Of a stretch of 64,000 nt of DNA, positions 6,177 through 41,720 are shown piece by piece. Numbering within the stretch: position 1 is the stretch's first letter; every line of letters begins with the position of its first letter. Source of the stretch: Acetobacter farinalis (lineage in GTDB: Bacteria > Pseudomonadota > Alphaproteobacteria > Acetobacterales > Acetobacteraceae). The notes under the pieces are model-generated. The model searched no databases, was not told where the DNA came from, and saw nothing but the letters and a program-made list of their open reading frames with translations. The position numbers and the translations under genes are program-made. Location: NCBI RefSeq assembly GCF_011516935.1, contig NZ_WOTF01000004.1, positions 62,001 through 126,000 of the forward strand, read 5' to 3'.

Positions 6177-6415
6177 GTGCAAATCCGGAATTATCGGTTA
6201 GAGGGGGTTGAACAGATGAAAATAAGCAAAACATAGGCTCAGGCATGGCTTTGCAGGGCTGAATGCCGGAAAACGGGTTGCATCACCATCTCGCTTTGCG
6301 TAGGCCATGGCCACGGTTACCGCGACCTTCTCGGGGTTTCGGGCATAGCCTACCTTACTTATGCTTCTTTAATAGCTGTTTTTCTATACCGTCCGCCGCA
6401 AGTTTGGGGAACACC

Positions 6416-7417
6416 ATGCCCGATCAAACTCCCACCCTTGCCACACAGGCGCCTGCACAGGCGCCGCATGGCAGGTCTCTCAAGGTTCTTCTCGCCGGTC
6501 CGCGCGGATTCTGCGCTGGTGTAGACCGCGCGATCCGCGTGGTGGAGGAAGCCATCCGCCGTTACGGCGCACCTGTTTATGTGCGCCACGAAATTGTCCA
6601 CAACCGGACGGTTGTGGAAGCGCTGGAAGCGCAGGGTGCCATTTTTGTTGAGGAACTGGATGAAGTTCCGGCAGATGGTCACGTTGTGTTTTCTGCCCAT
6701 GGTGTGCCCAAAACAGTGCCGGCCGAGGCGGAACGCCGTAACCTGCTGTACCTGGATGCAACCTGCCCGCTGGTGTCCAAGGTACACCGTGAGGCTGAGC
6801 GGCATTTTGCCGGTGGTGGCCCTGAAAGCCGCCATATCCTGATGATCGGCCATGCCGGGCATCCGGAAGTGGTGGGCACCATGGGGCAGCTTCCCGTGGG
6901 TGCTGTCACGCTGATTAACGATGCGGAAGAAGCCCGCACCGTGCAGCCTGCCGACCCCTCCCGTCTGGCCTTTATCACCCAGACCACCCTCTCCGTTGAT
7001 GATACGGCCGAGATTGTGGACATCCTGCGTGAACGCTTCCCGCTGATTGAAGGGCCGAAGCGCGAGGATATCTGCTACGCGACCACAAACCGGCAGGAAG
7101 CTGTGAAGGCTATTGCTCCGGAATGTGATCTGGTGATTGTCATCGGTTCTCCCAACTCCTCCAACTCCCAGCGCCTGCGGGAAGTGGCCGAGCGTTCGGG
7201 TGCGCCGCGCGCCCTGCTGGTGCAGCGTCTGGATGCGCTGGACTGGTCCGTGCTGGACGGCGTGAATACGCTGGGGATCACGGCCGGGGCTTCCGCGCCG
7301 GAAGCACTGGTGCAGGAAATGGTGGCCGAAATGGCCAAGCGCTACACGCTGTGCATTGATGAGCGCACGGTGAAGGAAGAAAACGTGATCTTCCGCCTGC
7401 CTGCGCCACTGGGCTGA
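6416..7417 (+). CDS. ispH: 4-hydroxy-3-methylbut-2-enyl diphosphate reductase
   Basis: IspH (LytB) is the last enzyme of the MEP isoprenoid pathway, reducing HMBPP to IPP and DMAPP with a [4Fe-4S] cluster. The three cluster cysteines are present: Cys33 ([10 protein letters not shown]), Cys117 (DATCPLV) and Cys220 (EDICYATTN). Other conserved segments include VRHEIVHN and [10 protein letters not shown]. The ATG at 6416 was chosen because it has a GGGGA sequence 5 nt upstream and gives a typical 333-aa protein. The frame is open further upstream (an ATG at 6263), but that extension is not IspH-like. It heads a run with thrB, rnhA and the def-like gene. IPP feeds the hopanoid precursor pool, relevant to hpnR in this window. 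Confidence 0.96.
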
Positions 7418-7432: not shown

Positions 7433-8407
7433 ATGGCTGTTTATACAGATGTGAGTGATGAAGCACTCGAGGCTTTTCTCGCGGACTATGCCATTGGCAA
7501 TCTGGTGGCGTTTCGCGGCATTGCCGAAGGGGTGGAAAACAGCAACTTCCAGCTTCGCACCACGCAGGGTGACTTCATCCTCACGCTGTATGAAAAGCGG
7601 GTGAATGCGCAGGAGCTTCCGTGGTTTCTCGGGCTGATGCAGCATCTGGCGGGGCAGGGGGTAACCTGCCCGCAGCCGGTGCCCAGCACGGCCGGGCAGA
7701 CGCTTGGCACACTGGCCGGGCGGCCTGCGGCCATCACCACCTTTCTGCCCGGCGTCTGGCCGCGCAAGATACGGCAGGAGCATTGCCGCCCGCTGGGGCG
7801 GGCTCTGGCGCAGTTGCATGAGGTCGGGCGGAGCTACGCGCCTGTCCGGCTCAATGCTCTGGGGCCTGCGGCTTGGCCGCCGCTGCTGGAGTCCTGTCGG
7901 GCTGGCGCGGATGCCGTGCATCCGGGCCTGCTGGCGGAACTCGATGCGGCATTGGCGCATATTCTGCCGCACTGGCCGGGGGAGGGAGAAAACCCCGCCC
8001 TGCCGCGCGGGCAGATCCATGCCGATCTGTTTCCGGACAATGTGTTCTTCCTGCACAAGGGCGTGTCCGGCCTGATTGATTTCTATTTCGCCTGCACGGA
8101 TTTCCTAGCCTACGATATTGCCATCTGCCTGAACGCCTGGTGCTTTGAGGGGGATGGCGCATTCAACGTCACATTCGCGCGGCAACTGCTGCAAGGGTAT
8201 GAGGATGTGCGCCCGCTGGGTGCGGAAGAACGGCAGGCTTTGCCGGTTCTTGCCCGGGGTGCAGCCATGCGCTTTCTGCTGACCCGGCTGTATGACTGGA
8301 TCAACACACCGCCGGATGCTCTGGTAACCCCGAAAGACCCGCTGGATTATCTGAAGCGCCTGCGCTTTCATCTGGCAACGGAGACTGCTGATGGCTATGG
8401 ATTCTGA
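7433..8407 (+). CDS. thrB: Homoserine kinase (type II, ThrB)
   Basis: Homoserine kinase of the aminoglycoside-phosphotransferase fold, as used by alphaproteobacteria for threonine synthesis (homoserine to O-phosphohomoserine). It has 324 aa, the usual length. Family signatures are GVENSNF near the N-terminus, the catalytic loop HADLFPDN (His196, Asp198) and IDFYFAC (Asp216), which supplies the Mg-binding acid. GGAGG lies just upstream of the ATG, 15 nt after ispH. The 3' end overlaps the start of rnhA by up to 17 nt. The thrB-rnhA pairing is common in alphaproteobacteria, supporting the assignment over other APH-fold kinases. Confidence 0.93.
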
Positions 8408-8951
8408 AACCGGCTCCGGGGCAGGGCTGCAACCGGATATGCCGTCTGCCTCTCAGCCTGAAGGGGCGCCAGCAGAGCAGGCACAAGCGCCGGAAAAGCA
8501 GGTGGTGGAAATCTGGACGGATGGCGGCTGCCGTCCCAACCCCGGCCCCGGCGGCTGGGGGGTTCTGCTGCGCTTTAAAGGCGTTGAGCGGGAACTCTCA
8601 GGCGGGGAAGAGGCAACAACCAATAACCGTATGGAGCTGACAGCCGCGGCAGAAGCGCTGGAAGCCCTGAAGCGCCCCTGCGTGGTGCGCCTGCATACAG
8701 ACAGCGAATATGTGCGGAACGGTATTACCCGTTGGCATACGGGCTGGGTGCGGCGCAACTGGCGCAATGCCGCGGGGGACCCGGTGGCGAATATGGATTT
8801 GTGGCGGCGCCTGCTGGATGCGGCCAAGCAGCATGATGTCTCCTGGCATTGGGTTAAAGGCCATTCCGGCGTGCCGGAAAATGAACGCGTGGATGAACTG
8901 GCGACCCAGGCGCGAAAAACCATGGAAGAAACGCTGAAGACAGCGGGCTGA
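8391..8951 (+). CDS. rnhA: Ribonuclease HI
   Basis: RNase HI cleaves the RNA strand of RNA-DNA hybrids during replication and R-loop removal. The four DEDD catalytic acids are visible at Asp44 (WTDGGC), Glu82 (NNRMELTAA), Asp104 (HTDSEYV) and Asp168 (ERVDELA). The basic handle region [11 protein letters not shown] is also present. An acidic, Pro/Ala/Gln-rich N-terminal extension of about 35 residues precedes the domain and is not part of the usual enzyme. ATGs at 8391 and 8397 both lie inside the 3' end of thrB, so translation is probably coupled. Confidence 0.95.
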
Positions 8952-8953
8952 GC

Positions 8954-9457
8954 ATGAGTATCCGCCCGATTGTGCAGTTTCCGGACCAGCGCCTGCGTGC
9001 GTGTGCCGCGCCTGTTACCGTCTTTGATGACGCTCTCTCCGCGCTGGCCCGGGATATTCTGGACAGTATGCGGGCCGCACCGGGCATCGGCATGACTGCG
9101 CCGCACCTCGGCGTGGCGCAGCGTGTGGTGGTGCTGGAACTCCCGGATGCCCCCCACCCCCAGACCTATGTGAACCCTGAGATTGTCTGGATGTCGGAAG
9201 AAACGTTCCGGCAGGAAGAGGGCAGTGTGTCCATGCCCGGCGTGACAGACGAGATCGAGCGGGCGGCCAAAGTCCGCGTGCAGTATCAGGATCTGGAGGG
9301 GAACCATCATGTTGAGGATGCAGAGGGCCTGCGGGCGGCCTGCCATCAGCATGAAATTGATCAGTTGAACGGGGTGTTCTGGCTGCAGAGGCTTTCCAGC
9401 CTGCGGCGTAACCGCTTGATTGCCCGCTATGAAAAGGTGAAACGCCTTCAGCGGTAA
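8954..9457 (+). CDS. Peptide-deformylase-like protein with altered metal site
   Basis: A 167-aa protein with the full peptide deformylase fold signature but degenerate active-site motifs. Motif 1 reads GIGMTAPH (residues 44-51), with His where Gln is canonical. Motif 2 reads EGSVS (89-93), with Ser91 in place of the metal-ligand Cys of EGCLS. Motif 3 reads HEIDQ (133-137), keeping the first His and the catalytic Glu but replacing the second ligand His by Gln137. Two of three metal ligands are therefore missing, and ordinary deformylase activity is unlikely (inference). It starts 2 nt after rnhA and is an intact, apparently maintained gene. A canonical def is presumably elsewhere in the genome; automated annotation will probably label this one def. 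Confidence 0.85.
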   Translation: MSIRPIVQFPDQRLRACAAPVTVFDDALSALARDILDSMRAAPGIGMTAPHLGVAQRVVVLELPDAPHPQTYVNPEIVWMSEETFRQEEGSVSMPGVTDEIERAAKVRVQYQDLEGNHHVEDAEGLRAACHQHEIDQLNGVFWLQRLSSLRRNRLIARYEKVKRLQR

Positions 9458-9635
9458 TGGGCAGGAGTGGGGCCGTCTTCCCTTCTGCCCTGCTCTCCTG
9501 ATTGACTTTCAAGGGCGCACCCGGAAGTCTGCCCGGTGGGTTTGAAGAGGAAGAGCAGCCTCCAGAACCCGGCGCCGCAGGATGGCGTGGTTTTTTAGGG
9601 CGCGGTTTTCCCGGCTCCTGTTTTGCAAGAGGTCC

Positions 9636-11129
9636 ATGGTGCCTGCCCCTTTCAAGCAAAGCCGCAAGGCGTCTGTCTGGTATCTTCTGGCGTTTGTGGT
9701 TCTGTCCGGTTTTTATACGCTGCTGGCGGCAACGCTTCCGTTCAATTCAGACAGCGTTTCCGCACTGCTGGAGGCGCGGGACATCCTGCACGGCAACATT
9801 CTGCTGCATGGCTGGGATCTTTCAACAGAGCCTTATTATGTCACGGAAATCTTGCCCTACAGCGTGGTGGCGGGTGTGGCAGGCTGGCACCTGTCCTTTT
9901 ATTATCTTGTGCCGGCGGCGCTGCTGGCGGGCATGGTCCTGCTGGCCTTCCGGCTGTGCCGGGAACTGGCCCCGCAGGGGGCGTGGTGTTTTCTGGTGCT
10001 GGTGGCAGCCCCCACAGCCTTTGGCGTGCAGGTGATGCTGATCCCCTGTATTCATATGGGGGCCTATGTCGGGGTTCTGCTGTGCTGGCTGCTGGTGCTG
10101 GCTCAGAAAAAGCAGGAAAGACCAGCACTGTGGGGTGTGTTCGTAGCGCTGCTGTGTCTGCTGCTCTTCAGTGATGACATCGTCAAATACTGCTTCGTTT
10201 TCCCTGTTCTGGGCGCGGCGGTGCTGCAGGGCGTGCAAACATGGCGGCTTCAGAAGTCCCGGCCTGCGGAGAACTGGCGGCTGGTGGCCTGCGTACTGGT
10301 GGCGTTGCCGCTGGCGTCCGGGCTGAAGAGCGTTCTGGCCCATAATGGCGGGTTTCATGTGCCGGGGTTATGGACCATGTCGTTCGCCGGGCAGGAGCGG
10401 ATTGGTTATAATTTTTCCGTGCTTGTTTCTGGTGTTCTGCATTTCTTCGGCGCGTATTTTTTCGGAAAAGACTTTTCCCTGCATGGCTCAGGGAACGAGC
10501 TGTTCCATCTGGCCGTGCTGGGGGCTGCTCTGGCGGGGGTGGTCAGGCTGGTGCGGAGCCGGAGCATCCGGTTCGATCTGTTCGATTATGCCGCCCTGCT
10601 GTGTATGGGCATTATGGTCGGGGCGTTTATGCTCAGCCAGTTGCCGATTGATGATGCATCCACCCGCTATCTGGTTTTTCCGTATGTCATGATGGCGCTG
10701 CTGCTGGCGCGGCATACCGTGTTGCCCGCCGTCGGACGGGCGATGTGTCTGGCCTGTGCCGCGGTATATGCGGTTTTGAGCATGCCCGCCCCCGTGCTGC
10801 ATTTCTGGCAGACCAACAGGAATTTCCCCATCAATATGGAATTGGCGCGCCGTGGTCTGACGCAGGGTTTTGCACCGTACTGGAGCGCTGCGGTGAACAG
10901 CCTGCCCAATCCGGTGCGGATTGCCCCGGTGACGTTTGGCGCGGAGATCAAGCCGTTCCATTTCCTGTCACGGCGGGACTGGTACACGCAGGGCGGCACT
11001 TTTTTTCTCTGTGAGACACCCGCGCAGGCCGCACAGGCGCAGGCCCGGTTTGGCCCGGCCAGCACCGTTGAGACTGTGGATGGTCATCTCCTGCTGGTGT
11101 GGAACAGGTCTCTCACGGTGCCGGATTAG
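9636..11129 (+). CDS. Polytopic membrane protein, possible GT-C type glycosyltransferase
   Basis: A multi-pass inner-membrane protein of about 497 aa with around ten hydrophobic segments. After the first one there is a periplasmic loop with acidic residues (FNSDSVSALLEARD), and the C-terminal soluble tail is about 100 aa. That layout resembles GT-C glycosyltransferases using polyprenyl-linked sugars, but no diagnostic motif proves it, so this is tentative. ATG 9636 has AAGAGG just upstream; an in-frame ATG at 9582 adds 18 basic residues and cannot be excluded. It lies about 125-180 nt after the def-like gene and converges on the envelope gene trio. Glycosyltransferase genes at 15-18 kb make a role in envelope polysaccharide plausible. 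Confidence 0.7.
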   Translation: MVPAPFKQSRKASVWYLLAFVVLSGFYTLLAATLPFNSDSVSALLEARDILHGNILLHGWDLSTEPYYVTEILPYSVVAGVAGWHLSFYYLVPAALLAGMVLLAFRLCRELAPQGAWCFLVLVAAPTAFGVQVMLIPCIHMGAYVGVLLCWLLVLAQKKQERPALWGVFVALLCLLLFSDDIVKYCFVFPVLGAAVLQGVQTWRLQKSRPAENWRLVACVLVALPLASGLKSVLAHNGGFHVPGLWTMSFAGQERIGYNFSVLVSGVLHFFGAYFFGKDFSLHGSGNELFHLAVLGAALAGVVRLVRSRSIRFDLFDYAALLCMGIMVGAFMLSQLPIDDASTRYLVFPYVMMALLLARHTVLPAVGRAMCLACAAVYAVLSMPAPVLHFWQTNRNFPINMELARRGLTQGFAPYWSAAVNSLPNPVRIAPVTFGAEIKPFHFLSRRDWYTQGGTFFLCETPAQAAQAQARFGPASTVETVDGHLLLVWNRSLTVPD

Positions 11130-41344: not shown

Positions 41345-41582
41345 GAGCCTGCTTAACAGAACGGGATGGTTCCCGTTCTGGGATGAAAAGGGAAGTATGG
41401 TGAGAACGCTGCTGTTTCTCGGCCATCGCTGCCCCCGCAACTGTATGTGACATCAGGCATGCTGCAACACTTTGGTTTTCCGGGTGTTTCTGGCCACTGG
41501 AGCGTTCTCCGGGAAGGTCTGTAGTGTGTGAAGGCGCCCGGGAACGGGGGTTTTGTGTCATCAGCCAGGAGACCTGCCATCC
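41345..41582 (+). promoter_or_regulatory. Cobalamin (B12) riboswitch
   Basis: The conserved core elements are present in order: a 9-bp hairpin (41358-41379), GATGAAAAGGGAA followed by GGTGAG, GCCCCCGCAACTG (41431-41443), GGCCACTGG (about 41492-41500), CCGGGAAGG (41509-41517) and the B12 box AGCCAGGAGACCTGCC (41563-41578). It precedes cobG on the same strand, so adenosylcobalamin should repress the cobGHIJ genes. Downstream, CCCAT at 41681-41685 can pair with ATGGG at 41711-41715, just before the cobG start. That would hide the ribosome binding region and suggests translational control (inference). Confidence 0.93.
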
Positions 41583-41720
41583 GGTTTTGGAAGAGTCATG
41601 CCTGGCGGGGTGTCCGGTGCATGGTGGCGTGCAAAGGCGCGCTATCGTCTGGGTTTGGCAGATGGCTCTGTAACAGCATCCCCATGCCGCCGTGCGCGGC
41701 GTGCTGCCTGATGGGTGCTT

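Follow-up and report, generated by a model that had tools for sequence, protein, structure and literature searches.

A peptide deformylase paralogue of Acetobacter farinalis belongs to an alphaproteobacterial clade with three invariant active-site substitutions

The locus

The DNA analysed (the window) is a stretch of 64,000 nucleotides from Acetobacter farinalis, and on its forward strand four genes follow one another closely: ispH/lytB (6263-7417; PF02401), an APH-family kinase gene (7433-8407; PF01636; named thrB in a preliminary description of this DNA), rnhA encoding RNase H (8391-8951; PF00075) and a peptide deformylase-like gene (8954-9457). The preliminary description placed the last of these within an ispH-thrB-rnhA operon. 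The embedding is real in the window, where only a 2-bp gap separates the rnhA stop (8951) from the start of the deformylase-like gene (8954), but it is local and says little on function. In the closest species (L034, L035, L249 and L250, their loci read in the right orientation) a serine-hydrolase gene of ~600 bp (PF06821) lies between rnhA and the deformylase-like gene and is missing at that position in A. farinalis, while other Acetobacter often have the two genes on separate contigs or kilobases apart. No rnhA linkage was found outside the Acetobacter arrangement among the member loci compared, and no conserved neighbour was found across genera, in member loci with long flanks, or within Bradyrhizobium. 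Gene order thus marks the rnhA linkage as a local Acetobacter arrangement and not a conserved system, and since the neighbours are not conserved the genomic context gives no functional clue. Downstream of the gene, at 9582-11129, is a hydrophobic protein of 515 aa without a Pfam match, and elsewhere in the window there is a cobalamin riboswitch (41350-41595, forward strand, 86 bits).

The predicted protein and its active site

Peptide deformylase (PDF), which removes the formyl cap from new bacterial proteins, is essential and a target for antibiotics. The 167-aa product of 8954-9457 was assigned as a PDF paralogue from its translation, family matches, clade and predicted fold. It scores 144.3 bits against Pfam PF01327 (cut-off 22.8) and 259.7 bits against NCBIfam NF009484 (curated cut-off 190). 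An AlphaFold2 model has a mean pLDDT of 95.9 and a pTM of 0.90; its top match in the PDB is the PDF of Legionella, with a TM-score of 0.94, and the 50 best solved-structure matches are all peptide deformylases (TM ≤0.94). The model therefore predicts a full-length protein of PDF fold, in agreement with the earlier view that the fold is intact apart from the active site.

The canonical PDF motifs are GxGxAAPQ, EGCxS and QHExDH. Their counterparts here, all on the forward strand, are GIGMTAPH (residues 44-51; 9083-9106), with Thr48 and His51 for the canonical Ala and Gln, EGSVS (residues 89-93; 9218-9232), with Ser91 (codon AGT) for the metal-binding Cys, and QHEIDQ (residues 132-137; 9347-9364), where His133 and Glu134 are kept and translation and alignment both place Gln137 at the position of the second metal-binding His. 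Beyond the motifs, alignment identified Phe142-Trp143 (9377-9382) where canonical enzymes have Leu-Phe, and the model and residue charge define a basic C-terminal helix (residues 149-166; 9398-9451).

Of the features that mark a PDF, the fold (PF01327) and the catalytic, invariant Glu134 of HExxH are present. Absent are the Cys metal ligand of motif 2, one of the two His ligands of HExxH, which reads HEIDQ, and the motif 1 Gln that forms a hydrogen bond to the formyl carbonyl (PMC13131673). All three substitutions listed in the preliminary description are present in the translation, and its statement that two of the three PDF metal ligands are gone is correct.

A clade defined by a triple substitution

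Homologues were collected from the Acetobacteraceae, the Alphaproteobacteria, the phylum, named genomes and plasmids. The combination H51/S91/H133/E134/Q137 (HSHEQ) was found in all 116 distinct clade members compared, and Q/C/H/E/H (QCHEH) at the matching positions in all 54 canonical PDFs; no intermediate type of active site occurred among these 116 and 54 sequences, and the sole remaining row of the comparison was a broken fragment from a Bradyrhizobium metagenome-assembled genome (MAG). The missing intermediates are not an artefact of a cut-off, because the two classes have overlapping profile scores, HSHEQ sequences starting at 169.6 bits and canonical ones reaching 196.9. It had been suggested that relatives be aligned to see whether the three substitutions are conserved together, and the alignment leaves no exception. 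Since the three residues have always changed together, the metal site appears to have been either rebuilt or lost.

Across 376 alphaproteobacterial genomes, a DNA search with motif 3 (HExDQ), which leaves positions 51 and 91 unconstrained, recovered 14 genes, of which 13 were already-known members and the fourteenth (L284) carries GIGITAPH and EGSIS; a reversed control pattern of the motif gave zero matches among those listed. The genome of L284 (G456) was not listed by a whole-gene profile search at E 1e-50, and the gene carries an insertion made up of AGDAE-type tandem repeats ahead of the VNP strand.

In phylogenetic analysis 40 HSHEQ members formed a single clade (support 100/97), to which the window protein belongs both by all five residues and by its placement in the tree. 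The comparison indicates that this alphaproteobacterial HSHEQ clade has one origin. T48, Y72, M94, F142 and W143 are further clade-specific positions, and R103 and F142-W143 are invariant in the clade along with His51, Ser91, His133, Glu134 and Gln137. Codon switching at Ser91 was considered as a signal of selection and rejected as uninformative, all codons being AGY, a single step from the TGY of Cys, which does agree with a single origin. An origin from phages was also rejected, phage matches being at most 44% identical in a comparison of identity only.

Canonical deformylases, distribution and selection

The A. farinalis genome has three PF01327 genes. Besides the variant there is a def (L001) adjoining an apparent fmt gene, and a second, divergent copy (L002); both have QCHEH sites, so the check for a canonical def proposed earlier found two. 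At least one further PDF gene accompanies the variant in 12/12 host genomes examined and the other PDF genes read there are QCHEH. A canonical def match was found in 48/49 Acetobacter genomes, and no HSHEQ member stands in for canonical def among the genomes examined.

The clade gene is near-core in Bradyrhizobium (123/149 species) and common in Acetobacter (33/49 species), with a patchy distribution in other taxa. Plasmid-borne copies occur in Acuticoccus, Aminobacter, Mesorhizobium, Sinorhizobium and Tistrella. The Mesorhizobium plasmid matches H2, H3 and H14 each fall into two pieces without an annotated gene, which suggests that these copies are in decay. One Bradyrhizobium MAG (L042) has a broken second copy upstream of the intact gene. 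Absence from a third of Acetobacter species, together with the broken appearance of some rhizobial plasmid copies, makes the gene dispensable.

Comparison of the window gene with seven relatives (Acetobacter species pairs) gave dN/dS values of 0.11-0.20. For the same species pairs the values were 0.02-0.14 for canonical def, pooled distant pairs having been dropped as saturated, and 0.07-0.11 for rnhA. These substitution rates point to a gene that is under purifying selection, yet mostly evolves faster than def.

Possible roles

The preliminary description regarded the protein as a retained pseudo-deformylase with a new role. There is good support for a retained, non-decaying paralogue that has taken on a new role, because there is a single clade with an invariant triple change, dN/dS is well below 1 and a canonical def is present in the genome; the lack of catalysis remains a prediction. 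That the gene is instead a strain-specific duplicate whose substitutions are tied to its decay is hardly credible. Some relatives are without the gene, some rhizobial plasmid copies match only piecemeal and dN/dS exceeds that of canonical def, but the reading frame is intact, the dN/dS range is low and the same substitutions are fixed across the class, and conservation across genera refutes strain-specific decay.

Our leading reading, held with a little less than even confidence, is that the protein is a neofunctionalised type-1 PDF paralogue with a rearranged, thiolate-free site, probably associated with the ribosome. Docking would be kept through the basic C-terminal helix; the E. coli PDF uses the corresponding helix to dock on ribosomal protein L22 (PMC8712518). 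The net charge of the C-terminus is +7.2 (range 5-9) in the clade vs +4.1 in canonical PDFs. The old substrate cleft would still accept N-termini that carry a formyl or another small acyl group. The active site itself may have been rebuilt by an exchange in which an imidazole moved from position 137 to 51 and an amide from 51 to 137, so that His51 and His133, ringed by Glu134, Ser91 and Gln137, could form a site that either binds metal more weakly or works by acid-base chemistry without metal. The paralogue might act on only some formylated N-termini, or on a related N-formyl compound. PDF itself is a mononuclear iron enzyme, the Cys90 of which is S-nitrosylated by NO (PMC7683392), and the paralogue could possibly work under conditions (oxidation or NO) in which the Fe-Cys site of true PDF is poisoned. 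The retention of Glu134 and His133 and the new invariant His51 are the reason for thinking that the site is perhaps rebuilt rather than dead; that no conserved neighbour hints at a substrate counts against the proposal, as do the dispensability of the gene, its mostly higher dN/dS than that of canonical def and the need for Cys90 in the Salmonella PDF. The more specific claim that the clade is a PDF-fold class whose transposed thiolate-free site carries out non-canonical chemistry, using a different N-formyl substrate or operating during oxidative or nitrosative stress, is rather unlikely.

The main rival, which we consider a serious possibility of about one in three, is a non-catalytic pseudoenzyme that recognises N-termini with formyl-Met, or the ribosome at its L22 site, but carries out no hydrolysis, and so shields nascent chains or competes with the true PDF, tuning deformylation. 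It is favoured by the loss of the two ligands, by a basic C-terminal helix that is not only retained but strengthened and by the constant presence of another PDF gene in the genomes examined. Cys90 is essential in the Salmonella PDF, where C90S fails a functional assay (PMC7683392), non-functional defA PDF homologues have been reported from Streptococcus and Staphylococcus (PMC5071857), and in Methylobacterium a reduction of PDF activity is reported to increase formaldehyde resistance (PMC13131673). Against it, the invariant Glu134 and the new, chemically competent His51, Ser91 and Gln137 are more than binding by itself should require, and some residues of the site could be expected to have drifted if binding were the sole function. 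Ordinary PDF activity that duplicates def through a different set of metal ligands (His51, His133 and Ser91 or Glu134), perhaps as an oxidation-resistant isozyme, would fit the NCBIfam label 'equivalog peptide deformylase' and the same predicted fold. It is improbable, however, with three catalysis-defining residues altered and no member supplanting canonical def in the genomes examined; because Cys90 is required in the characterised enzyme (PMC7683392), metal-dependent deformylation of the ordinary kind would need compensation by His51 and is otherwise unlikely. A metal-free serine-type hydrolase, in which Ser91 with His51 or His133 and Glu134 would form a nucleophile-base arrangement, can draw on the invariance of all four residues. 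We know of no precedent for such an arrangement on the PDF fold, which counts against this explanation, and its probability is very low.

A sister family without the metal-binding Cys and one of the metal-binding His residues is being annotated as an active deformylase. If the rearranged paralogue is catalytic, it would be a natural case of a metal site rebuilt through reciprocal exchange of ligands; if it is a binder, it would be an unrecognised factor of formyl-Met biology.

Comparison with known deformylases

No description of the HSHEQ variant was found in the open-access literature, subscription journals lying outside the search. NCBIfam NF009484 (PRK12846.1-5) groups the clade under the name 'peptide deformylase', which omits the altered site. 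Its cut-off of 190 also passes a canonical QCHEH PDF (L104; G479:C1:2383110-2383607) at 197.5 bits, so that proteins with two types of active site share the family name.

The closest known relatives are the type-1 PDFs of E. coli, Pseudomonas aeruginosa (1N5N) and Legionella (6CK7), which share the fold (TM 0.92-0.94); sequence identity is 42-43% with the structures from Pseudomonas and Legionella. Common to both are the GxG, EGxxS and QHExD motifs, the catalytic Glu and the basic C-terminal helix. The window protein differs at its metal site (Gln to His, Cys to Ser, His to Gln) and in its signature of Thr48, Tyr72, Met94 and Phe142-Trp143. The DefA homologues of Streptococcus and Staphylococcus (PMC5071857) are likewise found beside a true PDF and are reported as non-functional; they are from Gram-positive bacteria and are likened to the window protein by description, not by sequence. 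Nearest to hand are the two other PDF genes of the same genome, L001 and L002, which match PF01327 as the window protein does but have canonical Gln/Cys/His/Glu/His sites.
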